Assembly: GCA_016871175.1 (NCBI GenBank)
Contig: VFZL01000003.1
Span: 1-64,000, forward strand
Reading direction: 5' to 3'
Length of the DNA stretch: 64,000 bases
Origin: Acidimicrobiia bacterium
GTDB taxonomy: Bacteria > Acidobacteriota > Vicinamibacteria > Vicinamibacterales > CAVVIG01
Part shown: positions 3,191-36,404 of the stretch, piece after piece
Layout of the letters: the number at the start of each line of letters is the position of its first letter
Numbering within the stretch: position 1 is the stretch's first letter
Position numbers and translations under genes: made by a program
The notes under the pieces: generated by a model
The model's input: the letters and a program-made list of their open reading frames with translations, nothing else
The model's database searches: none
Told to the model about the DNA's origin: nothing

Positions 3191-3685
3191 ATGATCGCCC
3201 TGAAGAACGTTCTGGTCGCGACTGACTTCAGCGACGCGTCCGCGACGGCGCTCGAGTACGGTCGCCACTTCGCTCGCACGTTCGGCGCATCACTCCAAGT
3301 AATCCACGTGGTGGAGAATGTGATGGCGCGATTCGCGGCGGATGCGTACCCAGTGGTACTTCCAGACCTTCAAAAGGAGGTGGAAGACGCCGGGCACAAG
3401 AAGCTGCTGGCCGCCCTGAACGACGAAGACTACAAGCAGCTCAACGCAGTGCCCGTGGTTCGCACGTCGGCTGCCCCGGCATCGGCCATCGCTGAGTACG
3501 CCAAGGAGGCCAAGGTGGACCTGATCATTATGGGAACGCACGGCCGCGGGGGCGTTGCGCACTGGCTGATGGGAAGCGTGGCCGAACGGGTCGTGCGCAC
3601 CGCCACCTGCCCTGTGCTGACAGTGCGGCACCCGGAGCGGGAGTTCATCGCGCCTGACGCACTGGTCAGCGTGAGCAAGGCGTAG
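3191..3685 (+). CDS. Universal stress protein (UspA family)
   Basis: Single-domain universal stress protein, 164 residues from ATG 3191; upstream in-frame ATGs at 3167 and 3074 are possible but the family normally begins right at the first strand (here MIALKNVLVATDFS). The C-terminal ATP-binding signature G-2x-G-9x-G-S is visible as MGTHGRGGVAHWLMGS, followed by VVRTATCPVLTVR. Members bind ATP and are linked to survival under starvation or redox stress; the client here is unknown. A strong hairpin lies about 55 bp downstream. Confidence 0.88.
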   Translation: MIALKNVLVATDFSDASATALEYGRHFARTFGASLQVIHVVENVMARFAADAYPVVLPDLQKEVEDAGHKKLLAALNDEDYKQLNAVPVVRTSAAPASAIAEYAKEAKVDLIIMGTHGRGGVAHWLMGSVAERVVRTATCPVLTVRHPEREFIAPDALVSVSKA

Positions 3686-5066: not shown

Positions 5067-5782
5067 ATTCGCTCCGAGCTCAGGTCGCCGCCGATGGATT
5101 CGCGTTCGTGCGCGGCGCGACGATGCGCGAGCTTCTGCTGAGCGCGGGACCACTCACCGACTGGTCTGCTTTCGCGGACAGCTGGAATGCGCTCGGGCTC
5201 GATACGTACATGGCCGATGGCGGGCGATATCGGCGACGGCGACACGCCGTGTTCACGGTGCCGGTACACGGCGCCCCGATCAGAGAACCACACCAACCAC
5301 ACTATCAATCGACCGCGTACAACCCGCTTCACGGAGGCATCGAGCGCTGGTTCGAGCCGGTCGTCGATGCGATCGCTCAAAGTGACGCCCTTGACACGGT
5401 GCTCCGTTTCTGCCGGACGCTGTTCGGGGCGCTGGCGCCCGAAGTGACGACATGGCGCGTGGAAGTGCATCAATTCCGCATCGAAGCGCGTGAGGGCGAG
5501 GCAGGCCGACCGACACCGGAAGGACTCCATCGAGACGGCGTCGACTACGTGCTCGTGCTACTCATCAATCGTCGCAACATCGCAAGCGGCGTAACCGGCA
5601 TCTGCGATCCCGCCGGGCGGTCGCTAGGATCGTTCACCCTGACCGATTCGTGCGACGCCGCAATCGTGGACGATCACCGGGTTGCGCACAGCGTCACACC
5701 GGTGGAGGCCATTCAGGCCGGCCAGCCCGCCTATCGCGACGTGCTCGTCGTCACGTTCCAGGGGGAGGAATCAGGGAGCTGA
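5060..5782 (+). CDS. 2OG-Fe(II) dioxygenase family protein (2OG-Fe_Oxy_2 type)
   Basis: 240 residues. Iron ligands are visible as H157-x-D159 (in LHRDGVDYV) and H210 (in DDHRVAHSVTP); R226 in YRDVLVVTF is placed to bind 2-oxoglutarate. This pattern matches the family that includes bacterial free-amino-acid hydroxylases such as isoleucine dioxygenase (established family knowledge); the substrate here cannot be read from sequence. ATG 5060 is preferred over ATG 5024 because the extra 12 residues would be encoded by the 7-bp repeat island. Stands alone on the plus strand. Confidence 0.82.
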   Translation: MTDSLRAQVAADGFAFVRGATMRELLLSAGPLTDWSAFADSWNALGLDTYMADGGRYRRRRHAVFTVPVHGAPIREPHQPHYQSTAYNPLHGGIERWFEPVVDAIAQSDALDTVLRFCRTLFGALAPEVTTWRVEVHQFRIEAREGEAGRPTPEGLHRDGVDYVLVLLINRRNIASGVTGICDPAGRSLGSFTLTDSCDAAIVDDHRVAHSVTPVEAIQAGQPAYRDVLVVTFQGEESGS

Positions 5783-5853: not shown

Positions 5854-7884
5854 TCAGTTCCCCAGCTTGAAGGTCAGATACTCCCCGCTGTAGCCCGGAC
5901 CGCTGATCGCCATCGTGAGGTACTGCACGCCGTCGAGCATGTACGTCATCGGCGAGCCAGTCTGTGGCGCCGGGATGAAGACCGCACCGACTTCGCTGCC
6001 GGTCGCCTTGTCGTACGCGCGCAGGTACGCTCCGCGTCCCTGAGGCGTCGTGTTGAACCCACCCTCGCCCGCGATGACGAGCGACTTCGTCACGAGGACG
6101 CCGATGCGCCCTTGCCGTCCCGTCCGCGGAATATTCACACCCTTGAGCGCGGGGTGATTCTTCACGTTGTCTGGCGTATCGCCGTGCGCGATCTGCCACA
6201 CGAGCTCGCCCTTGTTCATGTCGATCGCCGTGATGCGACCGTAGGGAGGCTTGACGAGCGGGAGGCCGCGGACCGTGAGGCCACCGCCACCCTCACCACC
6301 ACCGCCAGGTCCGGAGCCCCGCCCGCCGGGGGCTGGCGGAGCCGCATTCGGGTCGCGCGCCGTGCCCTGCACGTAGGCCATGTCCGAGCGTCCGGGCGCG
6401 GGTGGCGTGAGGCCGAGGGGCGTGATGCCCGTATTGGTGAAGATGTAGAAGATCTTCGTGTCGGGGTCGAACGCGCCCCCTTGCCAGTTCGCACCGCCGG
6501 TGGCGGCCGGGAGCATCAGCGTGGCGAGCGGCCCGGGCCACGTGCTCACAACGGGCGGCGTGAAGATCGGCCCCAGCTTGTAGTTCGCGGCGAGTTTCAC
6601 TGCCTCGGCGCGGAGCTCCGGTGTGAAGTCGATCAGATCGTCCACTGACACGCCCTGGCGCTCGTACGCCGGCGGCTTCGTGACGAAGGGCTGCGTCTTG
6701 GCGTACCACTCGCCCGGCACGATCCCCTGTTCCACCGCTCGTTCCTCGATGGGCCACACCGGCTGGCCGGTGTTCCGGTCGAACACGTAGATCCACCCCT
6801 GCTTCGTCGGTTGTCCGACCGCTTTGATCTGACGGCCGTTCACCGTCAGGTCCATGATGATGGGGGCGCACGGGATGTCCATGTCCCACAGACCGTGGTG
6901 CACCAACTGGTAGTGCCACTTCCGTCGGCCGGTGTGGAGATCGACGGCCACCACGCTCTCGCCGAAGAGGTTGTTGCCAGGACGATGCATGCCGCTGTAG
7001 TCGCCAGTGGGCAGCTCGACCGGCAGGAACACCGTGTCCGTTTCCTCGTCGATGCTCATCTGCGCCCAGACGCCGCCGTTGCCGGTGTACGACCACGAGT
7101 CGTTCAGCCATGTATCATTGCCGAACTCACCTGGCCGTGGGATCGTGTGGAAGATCCACAGGCGCTTGCCCGTCCGAACATCGAAGCCGCGCACGTAGCC
7201 CTTTTCGTTGGTCTTGCTCTTGGGGATGCCGCCGGTCTGGTGCGCCGCGCCGATGACGATCACGTTCTTCGAGACGACCGGCGCTGCGTGCAAACCGACC
7301 TCGCCAGTGATGAGGTCCATGTTCTGATCGTCTTCGAGTTTCAGATCGACGATGCCGTCCTTACCGAAGGTCGGGATGCGATACCCGTTCTTCGCGTTGA
7401 GCGCGATCATCTGGTAGCCGGGCGTGACGTAGAGGATCCGCTCGTCGCCCTTCCCGTCGGTCCAGTACGCGAGCCCGCGGCCGGACAACTGACGCGGCGC
7501 CGCCTCACCGCGCTTGCCTTCGTTCAGGCTGTGCATCCAGAGCTGCTCTCCGGTCTTGGCGTCGAGCGCCACCACCGCGCGACGCGTTCCACCGGTCGCG
7601 TACATCCGTCCACCGATGAACAATGGAGTGCCTTGGAGCTGGAACTCGGGACGCGGACCGAGGTGATCGGTCTTGAAGCGCCACGCCACTTCGAGCTTGT
7701 TGAAGTTCGTGGCGTTGATCTGATCGAGCGGCGCGTAGCGCGTGCTGCGCAGGTCGGCGCCATACGTCTTCCACTCCCACGTTTGGCCGCCGCCCGTCTG
7801 GCCCTGCGTCGGCATCGTCGCCCACAGCAGCAATGCCACGAGTGGGCCGAGTCCGATTGCCCAACGCCGCACGTATCCCCTCAT
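5854..7884 (-). CDS. Exported PQQ-dependent dehydrogenase-like beta-propeller (downstream paralogue)
   Basis: 676 residues with an N-terminal signal peptide (hydrophobic to about residue 29, then QTGGGQ). Quinoprotein propeller of the membrane glucose dehydrogenase type: repeated ALDAKTGEQLW / AVDLHTGRRKW tryptophan-docking motifs, HHGLWDMDIPCAP, TGGANWQGGAFDP and PPYGRITAIDMNKGELVW. Such enzymes oxidise sugars or alcohols in the periplasm and pass electrons to quinone or cytochrome. No CxxCH haem motif and no N-terminal membrane-spanning domain are present, so electrons must leave through a partner. A glycine-rich insert (GGRGSGPGGGGEGGGG) near residue 520-540 is absent from the upstream paralogue. 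Substrate unknown. Confidence 0.88.
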   Translation of the reverse strand: MRGYVRRWAIGLGPLVALLLWATMPTQGQTGGGQTWEWKTYGADLRSTRYAPLDQINATNFNKLEVAWRFKTDHLGPRPEFQLQGTPLFIGGRMYATGGTRRAVVALDAKTGEQLWMHSLNEGKRGEAAPRQLSGRGLAYWTDGKGDERILYVTPGYQMIALNAKNGYRIPTFGKDGIVDLKLEDDQNMDLITGEVGLHAAPVVSKNVIVIGAAHQTGGIPKSKTNEKGYVRGFDVRTGKRLWIFHTIPRPGEFGNDTWLNDSWSYTGNGGVWAQMSIDEETDTVFLPVELPTGDYSGMHRPGNNLFGESVVAVDLHTGRRKWHYQLVHHGLWDMDIPCAPIIMDLTVNGRQIKAVGQPTKQGWIYVFDRNTGQPVWPIEERAVEQGIVPGEWYAKTQPFVTKPPAYERQGVSVDDLIDFTPELRAEAVKLAANYKLGPIFTPPVVSTWPGPLATLMLPAATGGANWQGGAFDPDTKIFYIFTNTGITPLGLTPPAPGRSDMAYVQGTARDPNAAPPAPGGRGSGPGGGGEGGGGLTVRGLPLVKPPYGRITAIDMNKGELVWQIAHGDTPDNVKNHPALKGVNIPRTGRQGRIGVLVTKSLVIAGEGGFNTTPQGRGAYLRAYDKATGSEVGAVFIPAPQTGSPMTYMLDGVQYLTMAISGPGYSGEYLTFKLGN

Positions 7885-7910
7885 GATCTGCCCTCGATTA
7901 TTGGTCGCAC

Positions 7911-7927
7911 CGCCCCGAACCGGGGCG
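7911..7927 (-). other. Small hairpin between the two PQQ-dehydrogenase genes
   Basis: A 6-bp GC stem (7911-7916 with 7922-7927) and 5-base loop lie in the 64-bp gap between the stop of the upstream paralogue and the start of the downstream one. It may tune or attenuate expression of the second gene; that is inference. Confidence 0.35.
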
Positions 7928-7948
7928 AACCGCCAATATTGTAGCCCG

Positions 7949-9925
7949 TCATTTGCCTACGCTGAACGTGAGCACTTCGGATCCGAATCCCTGTGCGCTG
8001 ACGGCGACGGTCAGGTACTGCCTGCCGTCCAGCATGTAGGTCATGGGTGATCCAGTCTGCGGCGCGGGCATGTAGACAGCACCCACCTCCTGGCCGGTCG
8101 CCTTGTTGTACGCGCGCAGCATCGCACCGCGCTGACCGTTGGGCGCCGTGAAGAAGCCGCCCTCACCGGCGATGACCAGCGTCTTCGTCGTCAGGACACC
8201 GATGCGCCCTTGCCGGCCGGTCCGCGGTATGGTCACGCCCTTGAGCATCGGGTGATTCTTGATCTCGTCGGGCGTCTCGCCGTGGGCGATCTGCCACACC
8301 AACTCACCCTTGTCCATGTCGATGGCCGTGATGCGACCGTACGGTGGCTTCACGAGCGGCAAGCCTCGGACGTTGAGGCCACTCGGCTGCGCACCTGGGT
8401 TCACCGGCTCGGCCGTGCCCGCGACCCAACCGAAGTCGCTCTTGGCCGGATCGGCCGGAATGAGCCCGAGCGCACTGATGTTCGTATTCGAGAAGATGTA
8501 GAACATCTTCGTTTCAGGATCGAACGAACCGCCTTGCCAGTTGGCACCGCCCGTCACATGCGGCAGCATCAACGTGCCGTACGGTTTCTCCCGACGGCTG
8601 ACGATCGGGGGCGTGAACATCGGGCCAAGCTTGTACTGGGCCGCGATACGCGCGCCCTCCGCCTTGAGCTCCGGCGTGAAGTCGATGAGATCGTCGAGCG
8701 TCACGCCCTGGCGATCGAACGCGGGCGGCTTGGTCACGAAAGGCTGCGTCTTCGCGTACCACTCGCCCGGCACGGTCCCATGCTCGACCAGTCGCTCCTC
8801 GATGGGCCACACCGGCTGACCCGTCATCCGGTCGAACACGTACACCCACGCCTGCTTCGTGGGTTGCGCCACAGCCTTGATCGCGCGGCCGTTCACAGCG
8901 AGATCCATCAGTATCGGCGCGCACGGGATGTCGTGATCCCAGATGCCGTGATGGACGAGCTGGTAGTGCCACTTCCGCTTGCCCGTCCTCAGATCGACCG
9001 CCAAGAGTGTCTCGGCGAACAGGTTGTTGCCCGGGCGATTCCCGCCGTAATAGTCGCCTGTCGGCAACTCGACTGGCAGGTAGACGGTGTCGGTTTCTGC
9101 GTCGATGGTCATCTGCGCCCAGACGCCGACGTTGCCCGTGTAGGACCAGGAGTCGTTCAGCCACGTGTCGTTGCCGAACTCACCGGGGCGCGGGATCGTG
9201 TGGAAGGTCCACAGCCGCTTGCCCGTTCGCACGTCGTACGCGCGGATATACCCCTTCTCGTGCGTCTTGCTCTTTGGTGCACCGCCGGCGAGGTGCGCCG
9301 CGCCAATGACGATGACATCCTTCGCCAGCACGGGCGCTGCGGCCAGCGCGACTTCGCCGGTCACAGGATCCATCACCTGATCGAAGTCCTGCTTCAGATC
9401 GACGATGCCATCGGTGCCGAAGGTGGCGACGCGCCGGCCGTTGGCCGCATTGAGGGCAACGAGCTGGTAACCGGTCGTGACGTAGAGAATGCGCTCGTCA
9501 CCACCGGGCGTTCCGTCCGACCAGTACGCGAGCCCCCGACCGGACTGCTGGCGCGGCGACGCCACGGCTCGCATGCCCTCGTCCAGGCTGTGCTGCCACA
9601 GCATCTCGCCGGTGCGCGCGTCGAGCGCGACGGCCGCGCGCCGCGATCCCGCCGTCAGATACATCTTGCCGTTCGCGACGAGAGGCGTGACCTGCAGGTT
9701 GTTTTCCAGCCGTGGGCCGAGATTGTTGGGACGAAACCTCCAGGCGATCTCCAGCTGGTTGAAGTTCGACGCGGTGATCTGGTCCAGCGCCGCGTAGCGT
9801 GTGTTCCCAAGATCGCCGCCGTAGGTGCGCCATTCCCCGATGGGGGCGCCCGTTTGCGCACGCGCCGTTGCCAGGGCGCCGATGAGCGCCACCGCGGTCG
9901 AGGCCGCCCGCAGTCTCGTCTTCAC
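7949..9925 (-). CDS. Exported PQQ-dependent dehydrogenase-like beta-propeller (upstream paralogue)
   Basis: 658 residues from GTG 9925, chosen because AGGAAGG (9934-9940) sits 8 bases upstream and a signal peptide (TRLRAASTAVALIGALATARA) follows directly. The architecture and most motifs match the downstream paralogue (HHGIWDHDIPCAP, TGGANWQGGSFDP, PPYGRITAIDMDKGELVW), with no haem motif. The two genes are adjacent, same strand, 64 bp apart, so they arose by tandem duplication and are probably co-transcribed. Family knowledge gives periplasmic quinoprotein oxidation of sugars or alcohols; the division of labour between the copies is unknown. The 257-bp gap before the divergent GGDEF gene should hold its promoter. 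Confidence 0.88.
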   Translation of the reverse strand: MKTRLRAASTAVALIGALATARAQTGAPIGEWRTYGGDLGNTRYAALDQITASNFNQLEIAWRFRPNNLGPRLENNLQVTPLVANGKMYLTAGSRRAAVALDARTGEMLWQHSLDEGMRAVASPRQQSGRGLAYWSDGTPGGDERILYVTTGYQLVALNAANGRRVATFGTDGIVDLKQDFDQVMDPVTGEVALAAAPVLAKDVIVIGAAHLAGGAPKSKTHEKGYIRAYDVRTGKRLWTFHTIPRPGEFGNDTWLNDSWSYTGNVGVWAQMTIDAETDTVYLPVELPTGDYYGGNRPGNNLFAETLLAVDLRTGKRKWHYQLVHHGIWDHDIPCAPILMDLAVNGRAIKAVAQPTKQAWVYVFDRMTGQPVWPIEERLVEHGTVPGEWYAKTQPFVTKPPAFDRQGVTLDDLIDFTPELKAEGARIAAQYKLGPMFTPPIVSRREKPYGTLMLPHVTGGANWQGGSFDPETKMFYIFSNTNISALGLIPADPAKSDFGWVAGTAEPVNPGAQPSGLNVRGLPLVKPPYGRITAIDMDKGELVWQIAHGETPDEIKNHPMLKGVTIPRTGRQGRIGVLTTKTLVIAGEGGFFTAPNGQRGAMLRAYNKATGQEVGAVYMPAPQTGSPMTYMLDGRQYLTVAVSAQGFGSEVLTFSVGK

Positions 9926-10182: not shown

Positions 10183-11136
10183 ATGCCTGCTCACGATTCG
10201 ACCCGCGCCGGCGAACCTCACACGCGTCGAGACCTCGAGTTTTGGGTCCGCGACAACCTCGGCCTGCGTCCGGACCAGGTCACCGAATTGATGTCGATGA
10301 TCGACGCCGTGTTTACGCGACACGAACGGATGTGGCAGGAGTCGAAGCAAGAAGCCATTCAGGCGCTGTCGGCCGGGTTCGCAGAGAAGATGAACCGCCT
10401 GAAAGACGAGTTGAGCGAAAAAGAGGCGACCGTCAGCAGCATCTCGCAGTACTTCGAGCAGCTCGTCGCCGATCTCACTGAGAAGACGCACCGCGATCCG
10501 AAGACGAAGCTCATGAACTTTGGGCGGTTCATGGAGCAGCTCGAGTCGTTCCTCGCGCTCGAACAACGCGGGCGGTGGTGCGCGGTAGGTCTAGTCGATA
10601 TCCACGGATTCAAGCGGTACAACGACGCGCTCGGGCATGCCGTGGGCGATCGGATCATCGAGCGCGTTGCGCAGCTCCTGCGCGAGCAGGCACGGTCCGA
10701 CGACCTGATCGCGCAGGAACGGCCCGGCGGCACACCCAAGAACTTGCACGCGCGGCTCGGCGGCGACGAGTTCTGCTTCATGATTCCCGACCTCGCTGAG
10801 TACCAGCAGGCGAACACAGTCGGGGAGCGGTTCCGCGAAGCGGTCGAGCGATTCGACTGGACAATCGAGGATCCACGGCTTGCGGCCCAACCGGTCCGTG
10901 TCGACGTGGGCGTCGTCTGCCTGTGGCTCGGGCGCGTGAACGAGCGTCGGACAATGGCGCGGAAGCTGGCTGCGGCGCTGATCCAGCGGGCCGACAAGCT
11001 GATGTACGACGCGAAGGGCAAGAGCGCGAATCACATCTACCTCGATCGCGTCTGCGTGTCTGGCGGAGAGCTGGCCGAGATGACCGACGAGAAGGTGGTC
11101 CGGATGATGCCTGGTCGTCGCAACGCCAACAGCTAG
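10183..11136 (+). CDS. GGDEF-domain protein, probable diguanylate cyclase
   Basis: 317 residues, cytoplasmic (no signal or membrane segment). Residues 1-95 are helical and rich in charged residues, likely a dimerising or sensing region; the GGDEF domain follows with DPKTKLMNFGRF, VDIHGFKRYND and an intact active site LGGDEF, then RADKLMYDAKG. It would make c-di-GMP from two GTP. The product-inhibition RxxD motif that usually lies just before the GGDEF loop is not seen (the equivalent stretch reads GGTPKNLHAR), so feedback control may be weak. A 15-residue insert lies just before the active site. Confidence 0.88.
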   Translation: MPAHDSTRAGEPHTRRDLEFWVRDNLGLRPDQVTELMSMIDAVFTRHERMWQESKQEAIQALSAGFAEKMNRLKDELSEKEATVSSISQYFEQLVADLTEKTHRDPKTKLMNFGRFMEQLESFLALEQRGRWCAVGLVDIHGFKRYNDALGHAVGDRIIERVAQLLREQARSDDLIAQERPGGTPKNLHARLGGDEFCFMIPDLAEYQQANTVGERFREAVERFDWTIEDPRLAAQPVRVDVGVVCLWLGRVNERRTMARKLAAALIQRADKLMYDAKGKSANHIYLDRVCVSGGELAEMTDEKVVRMMPGRRNANS

Positions 11137-11326: not shown

Positions 11327-11403
11327 GGTGGGTGTAGCTCAATGGTTAGAGCGCCGGACTGTGGCTCCGGAGGCTGCGGGTTCGAGTCCCGTCATCCACC
11401 CCA
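11327..11403 (+). tRNA. tRNA-His (GTG anticodon), CCA encoded
   Basis: Full cloverleaf by eye: acceptor stem 11328-11334 pairs with 11393-11399 (one G-T pair), D arm starts GCTCAATGGTTAGAGC, anticodon stem CCGGA/TCCGG encloses loop CTGTGGC with anticodon GTG, T arm carries GGTTCGAGTCC. The extra 5-prime G at 11327 can pair with C73 at 11400, the histidine-specific identity pair, and CCA is encoded at 11401-11403. An integrase remnant abuts its 3-prime end. Confidence 0.95.
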
Positions 11404-11404
11404 A

Positions 11405-11568
11405 CACCTAACCTGTGACAGCCTGACGCTGCGCTCGACGAGCCGCGACGCGTATTCGTGCCCCAGGTCGTGCCAGTGGAGGTCAATGCGTTTCAGCGCG
11501 CCCAGAGACTCCTCGCTCAGTCGGAAGGCCGCGCGACCGTAACCCACCACACCTCGATCCGCAGGCTG
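11405..11568 (-). pseudogene. Tyrosine recombinase (phage integrase) C-terminal remnant next to tRNA-His
   Basis: On the minus strand an open stretch from 11568 reads RAAFRLSEESLGALKRID, then LHWHDLGHEYASRLVERS and VRLSQVR, ending where the tRNA begins. This matches box II of tyrosine recombinases, normally H-D-L-R-H-x-x-A-S followed by a VxxLLGH helix. The catalytic arginine of HxxR is Gly here, no start codon is near, and the LLGH and catalytic tyrosine are missing because the sequence runs into tRNA-His. It is therefore a dead fragment. A tRNA 3-prime end is the classic integration target for such enzymes. Too short for firm family assignment but the motif is distinctive. Confidence 0.6.
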
Positions 11569-11646
11569 TCAGTTCGGACGCGACTCGTCCATGGCGATGC
11601 GTGAGGCATGGTGTTCGTGGATAGTGTGTGTTTCACGGTACGTGGA

Positions 11647-11666
11647 AAATTACTCGCGAGTAATTT
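11647..11666. promoter_or_regulatory. Perfect 20-bp palindrome, operator-like
   Basis: AAATTACTCG and its exact reverse complement lie back to back with no spacer, centred on CGCG, 59 bases before the ATG of the broken AAA ATPase. The AT-rich arms stand out in this GC-rich context. Likely a dimer-binding operator or a site bound by the ATPase system; not proven. Confidence 0.55.
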
Positions 11667-11725
11667 CTGATCTATCGTGATATGCTCCGGCGGCGTTCCG
11701 GCCCGCGCCGCGGCAACATCGCGAC

Positions 11726-12094
11726 ATGCCGCGCTACCTCCACCGCCAGGTCGCGGCCGATCTTGCCGAGAAGATGGTGCTCTTGGGCGGACCCCGCCAG
11801 GTCGGCAAGACCAGACTGGCGAGACACCTCCAGCCGGATCCAGCCGGGTAATTGAACTGGGACATTCCCGCTCATCGGGCCCGCATCCTTCGGCGCGACC
11901 TGCCCGACACCGAGCTGTGGGTCTTCGACGAGCTCCACAAGTACCGGCGGTGGCGGAATTTTCTCAAGGGCGTCTACGACGAATTTCACGGCGAGCGCCG
12001 CGTGCTGGTCACCGGCAGCGCCCGGCTCGACCTGTACCGCTTCGGCGGCGATTCGCTCCAGGGGCGTTATCACTACCTAGCCACGCTCGTCTGA
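11726..12094 (+). pseudogene. AAA family ATPase (AAA_14/DUF4143 type), broken by in-frame TAA and 3-prime truncation
   Basis: From ATG 11726 the frame gives MPRYLHRQVAADL, Walker A GGPRQVGKT, then TAA at 11849-11851 exactly where homologues have Tyr in a YLNWD motif (LNWD follows the stop). It continues in frame with ILRRDLPDTELWVFDELHK (Walker B) and FLKGVYDEFHGERRVLVTGSARLD, the sensor region, then stops at 12092-12094 right after GRYHYL. Intact members are about 380-400 residues and carry a DUF4143 C-terminal domain, absent here. Such ATPases are common solitary accessory genes of uncertain role. Both lesions indicate decay. Confidence 0.75.
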
Positions 12095-12238
12095 CGCCTC
12101 GCGATTGAAGGCTTCAGTGAGCGCGAAGTACACGCTCTCCACACGGACGAGTATACGGCGGGCCAGACACAGCCCACTCGCATCCGGTGCAGCGAGACGC
12201 CAACTCTCCCGATCGTGGCCCGTCGCCCGAAACCGCTG

Positions 12239-12889
12239 TCAGAGGCCGCGGCCCAGCTGTTCGAGGGCGACGCGCACGAGCTGGCTGCGGGTGCGCACAC
12301 CCGTGCGGTTGAAAAGCACCTGTAAGGCAGCCTTCACGGCGCTCTCCGAGAGCCGCAGGCGCACCGCCATCTCCTTGTTCGCCAGGCCTTCCATCAGAAA
12401 CGTGAGAATCTGACGCTCGCGGTCCGTCAGCCGCAGCGCGGGCGACTCGTCGACGTCGGTGCCCTGTACCAGCTTCCGTAAGTAGTGCTCATCAATCAGC
12501 ACCTTTCCCTCGAAGACCTCGCGGATGCTGCGCTTCAGGTCGTCGGCGGCGTGCTGTTTGTGGAAGATGCCCGCGACCCCCGCGCCAATCATCTCCCGCG
12601 CCTCACGGTCGGGCAGGCCCGCGGTGACAAGGAGCAAGCGCCCGGCGAAGCCGCGAGCGCGCAACGCCGACACGACGTCGTCGGCCGTCCGCTCGCCGAG
12701 CATGTAGTCGAGGAGGACGACATCGACCTCGACCTGCGCCAGCGCCTCGATCGCCTCCTCGGCGGCGCCGGCGATGCCCACGACCTCGAAAGCGGGATCG
12801 CCGGCGAGCAAACGAGCCAAGCCGTCCCGAAAGAGCGCGTGGTCGTCGACAAGGAACAGACGGATCGCCCGGGTCGTGCTAGCTGACAC
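12239..12889 (-). CDS. LuxR/NarL-family response regulator
   Basis: 216 residues from GTG 12889, supported by GGAGGA at 12895-12900, 5 bases upstream. Receiver: D15-D16, phospho-acceptor D61 (VVLLDYML), T89, K111. C-terminal LuxR-type helix-turn-helix: LTDRERQILTFLMEGLANKEMA, then RLSESAVKAALQVLFNRTGV. It would bind DNA when phosphorylated; no cognate kinase is adjacent, so it is an orphan here. A usual start is preferred over the far longer open frame upstream, which is antisense to a different coding remnant. It lies inside the decayed island but is itself intact. Confidence 0.87.
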   Translation of the reverse strand: MSASTTRAIRLFLVDDHALFRDGLARLLAGDPAFEVVGIAGAAEEAIEALAQVEVDVVLLDYMLGERTADDVVSALRARGFAGRLLLVTAGLPDREAREMIGAGVAGIFHKQHAADDLKRSIREVFEGKVLIDEHYLRKLVQGTDVDESPALRLTDRERQILTFLMEGLANKEMAVRLRLSESAVKAALQVLFNRTGVRTRSQLVRVALEQLGRGL

Positions 12890-12949
12890 GCAATTCCTCC
12901 AACGTACGAACGCGCACCGGTCGAGCCCTCCGTCGAACGGGCCGCTCGC

Positions 12950-13402
12950 ATGGCCGCCATCCTGCCCGCATGCGGCGTCGAGGTCGTCGCCGCTTGCACG
13001 TCCGATGACGACGACGTTCGACGAGATGTGTTGCGGCAGCACTTGGGTGCTGTTCCGACGATCCACCTCGTGCCAGCACACCAACATGCCATCGACTTCG
13101 CCCTTCAGGAGGCTGGCGGCTCGACGAGCGTCGTCACCGCTGCGGCCGAGAGGTACCGTGTGCCGAAGCACCCGCAGTCGCCGACGCTCGTGCTCGATCG
13201 GCCGCTCGCAGGCGATTCGGTGCTAGCCGTCGTCGACCCACGAGCGAACCGGTTCGACCCGCTTCTGACCGCGATCGATTTCGCGGAGCGGCTGTCGGCG
13301 CAGCGCGTCGTCGCCTGCCATGTGTAATTCGATGAGGCGCAGGCCGCGTGCGACGAATGGGAGCAGGAGGCGTTCGATCAGCTCCGTACCGTTGGCGGAG
13401 CG
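12950..13402 (+). pseudogene. Universal-stress-like protein fragment with in-frame TAA
   Basis: The frame is open from 12887 and reads like protein (VERAARMAAILPACGVEVVAAC, then SPTLVLDRPLAGDSVLAVVDP and LLTAIDFAERLSAQRVVACHV), the last part resembling the start of a UspA domain. TAA at 13325-13327 interrupts it, after which the same frame continues plausibly (FDEAQAACDEWEQEAF, DQLRTVGGA) to about 13402, where similarity to protein fades. No good start codon with a ribosome site precedes ATG 12950. I read it as a remnant of a tandem universal stress protein; identity is uncertain. Confidence 0.4.
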
Positions 13403-13640
13403 CGTCGACCTTTCCGGCGTACTCTCGCTTCGAACACTCCCGCTTCAGGTACCGCTCGCGGAGTTTTCGGATCTCGTACTTGTACAGCTCGAGGACGTAG
13501 CCGCGTGCGAGCGCGGGTGGCGTGTGTTCGGTGGGAATGATGCCGTGGCGCCAGACAACCGCAAGCACATCGGTGCGATATCGATACGGTCCGTCGCCAC
13601 GGACGATTCCAGCGCCCCCTTCTCCGGGCATCTCAGACAT
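13134..13640 (-). CDS. Small conserved-looking protein, C-terminus replaced by unrelated sequence
   Basis: ATG 13640 overlaps the thrC stop (13633-13635), suggesting coupled translation. Residues 1-85 look like a genuine protein: VLAVVWRHGIIPTEHTPP, LELYKYEIRKLRERYL, KREYAGKVDALRQRYG, rich in Arg/Lys helices. From about residue 86 (near 13385) to the stop at 13134 the reading is antisense to the stress-protein fragment and is Arg/Pro-rich noise. So the natural C-terminus was probably lost at a rearrangement junction near 13385-13402. Function unknown. Confidence 0.45.
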   Translation of the reverse strand: MSEMPGEGGAGIVRGDGPYRYRTDVLAVVWRHGIIPTEHTPPALARGYVLELYKYEIRKLRERYLKRECSKREYAGKVDALRQRYGADRTPPAPIRRTRPAPHRITHGRRRRAAPTAAPRNRSRSEAGRTGSLVGRRRLAPNRLRAADRARASATAGASAHGTSRPQR

Positions 13641-14925
13641 CGATCGCTCGTGACACCGCGTCGAGCGACGCGTCGATTCGCAGGATGTGCAGCGGCCCCG
13701 CAAGCGCTTCGGCCAACGGCCCGGGTGTCTCGATGGTCTTATGGATCACGGGCTCCACGATCTCACGGAACTTCGCCGGATGCGCGGTCGCCAGGAACAC
13801 TCCGGGCTGATTCGATTGAAGAACACTCTTGAGGCCCATGTACGCAATCGCGCTGTGGGGATCGAGCAAGTAGCCCCGTTCCTCGTAGACACGTCGAATC
13901 GTCTGGCGCACGTCGTCGTCTGCGAAACGACAGCCGATGACGTCGCGTCGCATGGCGTCCACGCCGTTGCCGTACAACCACAGCATGCGATCGAAGTTGC
14001 TCGGGTGGCCGACGTCCATCGCGTTCGCGATCGTGGCCACCGAGGGCCTCGGCGCAAAGACGCCGCGCTCCAGGTACTCGGGCACCACGTCGTTCACGTT
14101 CGTAGCGGCCACGAACCGCGACACCGGCAATCCCGCGCGCTTGGCCATGAGGCCAGCCGTCAGATTGCCGAAGTTGCCGCTCGGCGTGCACATCAGCAGG
14201 TCTCCCCCGACCGGGCCGAGTTGGGCCACCGCATGGAAGTAGTAGACCATCTGCGGCAGCAGTCGTCCGACGTTCACGGAGTTGGCTGACGTGAGCCTCG
14301 CGGCGCGGCTCAGCGCATCGTCGCCAAACGTCTCGCGCGTCAGCCGATGGCAGTCATCGAAACTACCCGCCACCGCATACGCCCGGACGTTCCCCGCCTC
14401 CGCGTTGAACATCGTCAGCTGCGCTTCCTGGGTAGGGCTGACGCGGCCATCCGGATACAAGACGACGACTCGAGTGTGCGGAACGCCGTGGAAGGCGTGC
14501 GCCACGGCGCTCCCTGTGTCACCGGAGGTCGCCGCCAGGACGGTGAGGTCTCGTTCGTCCTTGTCGAGCGACGCCATCAGCCGCGCCATCAGCCGTGCCC
14601 CGACGTCCTTGAAGGCAAGCGTCGGTCCATGGAACAGCTCGAGGGCATAGACGCGGGGCTCGACCTCTACTAGCGGGATTGGGAAGTTCAAGGCATCGAC
14701 AACGAGCGCCTCGAAGAGAGTGGCGTCGAGCTCCCCTCGCGTGTACGGACGGAGCGCGCGGTAGCCGATCTCGGTCAGGGTCCGGTTCGACAGGCGACTG
14801 AGCTCGTCCGCGCTCCACGGCTCGATCGTCTCGGGCACGTACAGGCCACCGTCGGGCGCGAGCCCGATGAGCGCGGCTTCGCGGAACGATACCGGCTGAC
14901 CGCCACGCGTCGTTACGAACCGCAT
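13633..14925 (-). CDS. thrC: Threonine synthase
   Basis: Converts O-phosphohomoserine to threonine with pyridoxal phosphate, last step of threonine synthesis. 430 residues from ATG 14925. The family N-terminus (FVTTRGG, FREAALIGLAPDGGLYVP) is clear; the PLP-binding lysine is K106 in PTLAFKDVGARL; the phosphate loop AATSGDTGSA follows, and the CTPSGNFGN segment is present. The gene overlaps the thrB stop by 13 bases, so the two are translationally coupled. Confidence 0.96.
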   Translation of the reverse strand: MRFVTTRGGQPVSFREAALIGLAPDGGLYVPETIEPWSADELSRLSNRTLTEIGYRALRPYTRGELDATLFEALVVDALNFPIPLVEVEPRVYALELFHGPTLAFKDVGARLMARLMASLDKDERDLTVLAATSGDTGSAVAHAFHGVPHTRVVVLYPDGRVSPTQEAQLTMFNAEAGNVRAYAVAGSFDDCHRLTRETFGDDALSRAARLTSANSVNVGRLLPQMVYYFHAVAQLGPVGGDLLMCTPSGNFGNLTAGLMAKRAGLPVSRFVAATNVNDVVPEYLERGVFAPRPSVATIANAMDVGHPSNFDRMLWLYGNGVDAMRRDVIGCRFADDDVRQTIRRVYEERGYLLDPHSAIAYMGLKSVLQSNQPGVFLATAHPAKFREIVEPVIHKTIETPGPLAEALAGPLHILRIDASLDAVSRAIDV

Positions 14926-34988: not shown

Positions 34989-36404
34989 GTGGTCGTGTTT
35001 CGCCGCCTCTGTAGTCTCGTGCTCGGAGTCGCGATCGTGGCTCAGACCCTGCCCGTCTCTGCGCAAGCACAGGCTCGCAGACGACGCGCCGCGGCGCCGA
35101 CAGGGCGGTTCGATGTTGCGCCGTACCGCGACGCGGCCTCCCGGCTCATCGGCGCTGCCTTGGCAGATCGCGCCGCCTGGCTCCGTCTCGCGGAGCTCAC
35201 CGACACGATTGGCCATCGTTTGAGCGGTTCACCGCAACTGGAACGCGCGATCGCCTGGGCCGTCGATCGGATGACCCGAGACGGCCTCGAGCACGTCCGC
35301 ATCGAGAAAGTCATGGTGCCCAAGTGGGTGCGCGGTGCTGAACGCGCGGACATCCTCGAGCCGTATCCTCATGCGATCGCGATGCTCGGCCTGGGCGATA
35401 GCGTCGGGACGCCACCCGAAGGCATCACGGCCGAGGTGCTGGTCGTCAGCGGCTTCGCGCAACTCGACGAGCGCGCGTCCGACGCGCGCGGCCGCGTCGT
35501 CCTCCTCAACGTTCCGTTCACGACCTACGACGAGACGATGAACGTGCGCGTGACGGGAGCCTCGCGCGCGGCCCGTCACGGCGCTGTGGCGATGCTGATT
35601 CGATCCGTGGGCCCCAACGGCCTTCGCCTACCGCACACGGGGATGCTGCAGTACGCGGCGGATGCCCCGGCGATACCGGCGGCCGCCATCGCCTCGGAGG
35701 ACGCGGATCGCCTGCAGCGTATGGCCGACCGTGGCGACACAGTCGTCGTCCGCCTCCAGATGGAGGCGCGCACGGATGGTGATGTCGAGTCGGCCAACGT
35801 GATCGGCGAGCTCCGTGGACGTGAGCGACCTGACGAGATCGTCGTCGTCGGCGGGCACCTCGATTCGTGGGACGTCGGCGCCGGCGCCCAGGACGACGGC
35901 GGCGGGTGCATTGCGACCTGGGAGGCCGTCCGCCTGATGAAAGCGCTCGGGCTGCGGCCCCGACGCACCGTGCGAGTCGTCCTGTTCACCAACGAAGAAA
36001 ACGGGACGCGAGGCGGCACCGCGTACCGCGACATGCATCGCGCCGAGCTCGCGCAGCACGTGGCCATGTTGGAGTCGGATAGCGGCGTCTTCCGGCCCAC
36101 CGGCTTCGGCTTCACGGGCAGCGCCCGCGCACGGGCGACGGTGATGGTTATTGCGTCGCTCCTTGAAGGCCTCGGCGCCTCGACAATATCGGCCGTAGGC
36201 GGCGGGGCAGACATCGGGCCCAGCGTCGAGGCGGCGCGCATTCCGGCGCTGTCCCTGGACGTCGACGGACCCTACTTCCAGATCCACCATACGCAGGCCG
36301 ACACGGTCGACAAAGTCGATCCGCGGGAGCTTGCCACGTGTGTCGCGGCGATTGCGGTGATGACGTATGTGCTAGCCGAAATGCCCCAGCGCCTGGGCGA
36401 GTAG
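34989..36404 (+). CDS. M28-family zinc metallopeptidase, exported
   Basis: 471 residues, signal peptide in the first 30 (LCSLVLGVAIVAQTLPVSAQAQA). Two-zinc site: H290 in GGHLDSWD, the bridging Asp in AQDDGGG, E in TNEENGTRGG, D in LESDSG, and His in QIHHTQADTVD. A protease-associated insert lies between residues about 130 and 250. Aminopeptidase or carboxypeptidase type; periplasmic. GTG 34989 or GTG 34995 may be the start. Confidence 0.88.
   Translation: MVVFRRLCSLVLGVAIVAQTLPVSAQAQARRRRAAAPTGRFDVAPYRDAASRLIGAALADRAAWLRLAELTDTIGHRLSGSPQLERAIAWAVDRMTRDGLEHVRIEKVMVPKWVRGAERADILEPYPHAIAMLGLGDSVGTPPEGITAEVLVVSGFAQLDERASDARGRVVLLNVPFTTYDETMNVRVTGASRAARHGAVAMLIRSVGPNGLRLPHTGMLQYAADAPAIPAAAIASEDADRLQRMADRGDTVVVRLQMEARTDGDVESANVIGELRGRERPDEIVVVGGHLDSWDVGAGAQDDGGGCIATWEAVRLMKALGLRPRRTVRVVLFTNEENGTRGGTAYRDMHRAELAQHVAMLESDSGVFRPTGFGFTGSARARATVMVIASLLEGLGASTISAVGGGADIGPSVEAARIPALSLDVDGPYFQIHHTQADTVDKVDPRELATCVAAIAVMTYVLAEMPQRLGE

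Follow-up and report, generated by a model that had tools for sequence, protein, structure and literature searches.

Vestiges of a putative tRNA-His insertion and of a deleted two-component operon at an apparent rearrangement seam in an Acidobacteriota genome bin

Introduction

The 3' ends of tRNA genes are common attachment sites. The locus described here resembles the tyrosine-recombinase islands found at such ends in that an integrase vestige lies by the tRNA with its C-terminal side facing the tRNA 3' end, accessory genes follow downstream and the tRNA itself is intact. It also resembles two other kinds of described loci. One is the two-component-SulP-USP system carried by contig C75 of the same genome bin and by locus L109: the response regulator in our sequence is 98% identical to that of C75 at the DNA level and 75% identical to that of L109 at the protein level, and a universal-stress-like (USP) remnant has its counterpart in the third USP gene of C75. 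The other is the group of AAA_14 ATPases of relatives in the same order (L009, L011-L016), to which a remnant in our sequence is alike at 60-69% identity over about the first 120 residues.

The sequence under study, hereafter the window, is a stretch of 64,000 nucleotides of contig C3 of an 85-contig, 4.44-Mb genome, which is itself a bin. An earlier note on this DNA had proposed that an element integrated downstream of the tRNA-His gene and largely decayed, leaving a regulator behind. Our analysis makes it probable that the locus has a longer history, in which a tRNA-His insertion gave rise to an accessory region, this region became a rearrangement seam, and nested deletions then pared it down.

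Results

The features of the locus are collected in Table 1. The broken AAA ATPase, the orphan LuxR-type regulator, the USP-like fragment with an in-frame TAA and the replaced C-terminus of a small gene, all described in the earlier note, were recovered upon re-analysis with coordinates that agree to within a few bases.

Table 1. Positions of the features of the tRNA-His locus in the window
Feature	Position	Strand	Remarks
GGDEF-domain protein gene, left flank	10183..11136	+	conserved position in family relatives, immediately upstream of tRNA-His
tRNA-His (GTG)	11328..11403	+	intact; identical over its length to tRNA-His of the sister species G001
Left junction	11404..11412		similarity to G001 stops at 11412; integrase remnant begins at 11407
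Tyrosine-recombinase remnant	11407..11520	-	38 aa spanning the HxxR box; lacks the C-terminal part and the N-terminal two thirds
AAA_14 ATPase pseudogene	11717..12094	+	first third only; in-frame TAA at 11849-11851
LuxR/NarL-type response regulator	12239..12889	-	intact ORF, orphaned from its histidine kinase
Deletion scar GAACGCGC	12908..12915		8-bp microhomology; about 4.8 kb (HK, SulP, USP1, USP2) of C75 missing
USP-like pseudogene (third USP of operon)	12908..13390	+	first codons missing; TAA at 13325-13327; cut at right junction
Small gene downstream of thrC	13134..13640	-	conserved part 13396-13640; C-terminus replaced
Right junction	13386..13396		USP remnant meets small-gene tail
Threonine synthase (thrC), right flank	13633..14925	-	intact

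ARAGORN found a single tRNA, the tRNA-His, which is linked to the GGDEF gene in family relatives as well. Only 9 bp beyond it are still similar to the sister species. The remnant that follows, noticed before as lying directly after the tRNA, encodes LSEESLGALKRIDLHWHDLGHEYASRLVERSVRLSQVR and is homologous to intact tyrosine recombinases of relatives (54-68% identity, E 1.6e-7 to 1.7e-9). Among the catalytic residues (R, H-x-x-R, Y), the HxxR box alone is left and the tyrosine region is deleted; the box itself has changed from HDLRH to HDLGH, with loss of the catalytic arginine. The segment that carried the catalytic tyrosine has therefore been lost, the remnant beginning 4 bp from the tRNA where related loci have a gap of 200-555 bp.

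In 19 of 22 related loci a tRNA lies at that distance from the homologous integrase, and in all 19 of these tRNA-linked loci the C-terminus of the integrase faces the tRNA 3' end; some of the frames extend into the tRNA itself. The vestige in the window thus adjoins a tRNA 3' end in the usual orientation of a tRNA-targeting lineage. The tRNAs targeted by its homologues are those for Gln, Glu, Val, Phe, Arg, Met, Lys and Pro, and no homologue was seen beside tRNA-His in the related loci. Likewise, nine tRNA-His regions checked in relatives lacked this integrase nearby, with only a weak match in G015. Beside tRNA-Gln, relatives carry other truncated or mutated vestiges of this integrase family (L084 3830-4027, L085 3571-3768 and L210 1311-1427), and decayed insertions at tRNAs seem to be common in the order.

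A search for an attachment duplication gave a negative result: with up to 3 mismatches allowed, the genome contains a single copy of the final 23 nt of tRNA-His, and the window a single copy of its final 26 nt. Weak 16-mer matches at 35495 and 38308 were considered as attachment sites and rejected as not credible. The missing attL/attR repeat is what would be expected if the far end of the element was lost; as no repeat was found, we speak of the remnant of an integrated element and not of an integrated element. The vestige and its orientation make it very probable that a tRNA-targeting element was once present at tRNA-His, and from them we infer its integration. A duplicated or moved integrase fragment could also lie near a tRNA with no integration there.

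Next to the integrase remnant lies the AAA_14 pseudogene, which retains roughly the first 128 of some 378 residues and is 60-69% identical to intact relatives of 375-383 residues. The rest is absent, and with the internal stop no open frame of this gene covers a complete AAA_14 domain and the C-terminal part.

The regulator ORF, by comparison, is whole: it has 216 aa and both domains (Response_reg 1.3e-13, GerE 6.2e-12), which place it in the NarL/FixJ (LuxR-type) group, and its best match in the same family lies on a 10,094-bp contig of G022 (C138). No partner histidine kinase (HK) gene lies beside it in the window; C75 and L109 both have one. On C75 the response regulator (RR) and HK genes are followed by divergent SulP, USP1 and USP2 genes and the start of USP3, so that the operon is largely whole. 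Because L109, from an Acidobacteria MAG, has the same gene order through USP2, HK-RR/SulP-USP is an established operon. Positions 1-447 of C75 correspond to window 12472-12918 at 98% identity and positions 5269-5360 to window 12908-12999 at 95%, and the scar between the two can be read to the single base. On this comparison, the regulator and the USP fragment are the two ends of one operon, the regulator being the stump left by the deletion; this link was absent from the earlier note. The USP assignment rests on C75 and on an intact paralogue on C53, as Pfam alone gives no match to the fragment; against the C53 paralogue, in-frame homology continues past the stop codon and reaches about 13381-13390. 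Nothing points to the HK-RR/SulP-USP operon having been cargo of the tRNA-integrating element.

We rejected the idea that C75 is a simple strain allele of the window, as it carries its own USP3 deletion followed by IS91-like sequence that it has in common with VGVH01000038.1 (L111). The two ends of C75 match L111, which is recorded under a Gammaproteobacteria MAG, in exact overlaps of 101 bp (L111 1-101, C75 1-101) and 127 bp (L111 5955-6081, C75 5640-5766; C75 being L039 in our locus set). Besides the remaining part of the regulator, L111 carries genes for an IS91-type transposase, a second tyrosine recombinase and a carbonic anhydrase, together with a piece of SulP. C75 and L111 probably come from one assembly graph; as their bins belong to different phyla, at least one of the two is probably mis-binned. 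The SulP/carbonic-anhydrase part of L111 is 79% identical to G001, which favours an Acidobacteriota origin; the tetranucleotide profile of C75 is consistent with the genome of the window and would fit other Acidobacteriota too. We also observed a motif of about 33 bp (GATAGACAACATTAGAGGGGTCGAAGGTTAACC) twice in L111, at 329-362, where it replaces the last codons of the regulator, and at 3431-3466, where it ends the transposase/tyrosine-recombinase unit. It is possible that this motif is an IS91-like terminus bracketing the HK-RR/SulP-USP operon.

The coexistence in one assembly of near-identical regulator copies (C75 and L111), with a 109-bp exact stretch common to the window, and the fact that the genome is a bin of many contigs, raise the question of whether the locus is an assembly artefact, in which C3 fuses two genuine loci from a single organism or from more than one. 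This is unlikely in our estimation: there are several independent junctions (at about 11412, at the border of the AAA and RR genes, at 12908 and at about 13390), apart from the 8-bp microhomology no shared repeat was found at them, the copy in the window shows a 2% difference from C75 and has its own decay, and the base pairs next to the tRNA still resemble G001.

The small gene had been counted as a member of the island, but comparison with relatives assigns it to the conserved flank of thrC. Its C-terminus is replaced from about 13395, ending in '...VDALRQRYGADRT' in the window and in '...VDALRRRYGVLALVPQRWLVEP*' in relatives. The right junction falls inside its last codons (relatives '...RYGVLALVPQRWLVEP*', window '...RYGADRTPPAP...'), and the ORF now continues antisense through the USP remnant.

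Gene order in relatives separates the two flanks. In G001, G007, G010, G015, G016, G018 and G022 one and the same block lies 2-14 kb beyond the GGDEF gene and tRNA-His (G022 provided the query, and six other relatives were tested), and in the genome of the window this block sits on C40. The small gene and thrC adjoin another block in G001, G006 and G010, which in the genome of the window is on C5. thrC and the tRNA-His region never share a contig in those family relatives in which both were located; these relatives are fragmented bins, so that different contigs mean less than far apart, but the flanking kilobases on each side do differ. The earlier note had looked to an empty tRNA-His site as a check, and none of the relatives examined, the nearest being the one other genome of the genus, joins the two flanks. 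Since each flank has its own conserved neighbour, 11404-13395 is the junction of two formerly separate regions, a rearrangement seam between two parts of the chromosome, a circumstance missing from the earlier note.

These results bear on whether a simple insertion followed by decay would be enough, with the ATPase, regulator and USP genes forming one island beside thrC at tRNA-His and no other rearrangement. The integrase remnant 4 bp from the tRNA speaks for it, as do the clustering of the lesions and the accessory nature of all genes from the remnant to 13390, which are broken except for the regulator; to this extent the original proposal stands. We nevertheless judge it improbable, because no relative examined has the two flanks side by side and no attachment repeat exists. 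The regulator that the element was thought to have left is the residue of a deleted operon.

A reciprocal rearrangement between C40 and C5 was considered and discarded. Other neighbours are found at both breaks (S15 peptidase and xanthine-dehydrogenase-like genes; SulP and nitrile hydratase genes), so a single inversion is insufficient. The SulP gene on C5 (120911-122593; L102 8911-10593) adjoins the block that lies next to thrC in relatives; its Pfam match is confined to the later part, and its start may be frameshifted. Elsewhere in the window, 5856-9839 holds two similar adjacent genes with about 73-76% cross-identity, the second of which reads as a PQQ-dehydrogenase-like protein; the pair is conserved in G001.

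Finally, we compared the codons of the regulator with those of its second copy, joined from the overlapping contigs C75 and L111. Over 215 codons, 17 synonymous and 3 amino-acid-changing codons differ (P = 2.5e-7), where neutrality would lead us to expect 71% amino-acid-changing differences. On the branch of the window, polarised approximately with two distant outgroups, 7 changes are synonymous and 1 alters the amino acid (P = 0.0009 on the neutral expectation). By these counts, purifying selection acted on the regulator through most of its history, a signal that may predate the deletion. The same branch counts, together with the intact reading frame and its two domains, would also agree with a working orphan response regulator kept by selection after loss of the kinase. 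This is compatible with the history that we propose, differing on present function only. We hold it to be unlikely, though not far-fetched: the selection signal may be older than the deletion, the HK gene upstream is gone, and what now lies upstream is the USP pseudogene on the opposite strand. The regulator probably lost its promoter together with the kinase and is now probably a silent or recently orphaned relic, and the stretch as a whole most likely does little at present.

Discussion

The favoured history, whose order of events we infer, would have begun with the integration, at the tRNA-His 3' end, of an element whose tyrosine recombinase belonged to a tRNA-targeting family, as its vestige and orientation suggest. 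The site would then have become an accessory-gene region that also held the AAA_14 ATPase and the HK-RR/SulP-USP operon. Synteny shows that the chromosome was then cut here by rearrangement, the post-tRNA block now lying elsewhere and the thrC-small-gene region being joined to the far side. Nested deletions removed all but a vestige of the integrase, two thirds of the ATPase gene and, across the microhomology seen against C75, 4.8 kb of the operon. The tRNA and thrC remain intact, as does a regulator ORF without its kinase and probably without a promoter. A variant to which we give little credence has the tRNA-His-borne element itself driving the rearrangement. An accessory island at tRNA-His could, for instance, have recombined with another that carried the HK-RR/SulP-USP operon beside thrC, with the regulator carried to the tRNA site and kept as a functional stand-alone gene.

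On the favoured history, the locus offers a well-resolved case of how a tRNA insertion site may turn into a rearrangement seam pared by microhomology deletions, with a less decayed copy of the lost operon present in the same metagenome bin. It also cautions that, in metagenome bins, an "orphan regulator" may be what a deletion left behind and not a stand-alone regulator.

Set against the described systems, the window differs from the same-order AAA_14 ATPases by a nonsense codon and the loss of about two thirds of the protein, and from the C75/L109 system by the deletion of HK, SulP, USP1 and USP2 and the breakage of USP3. Unlike the tyrosine-recombinase islands at tRNA 3' ends, it has lost nearly all of its integrase, including the catalytic arginine, has no attR copy and has a rearranged far flank. 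The locus is thus unusual in detail and ordinary in kind, and it leaves the understanding of such islands unchanged.
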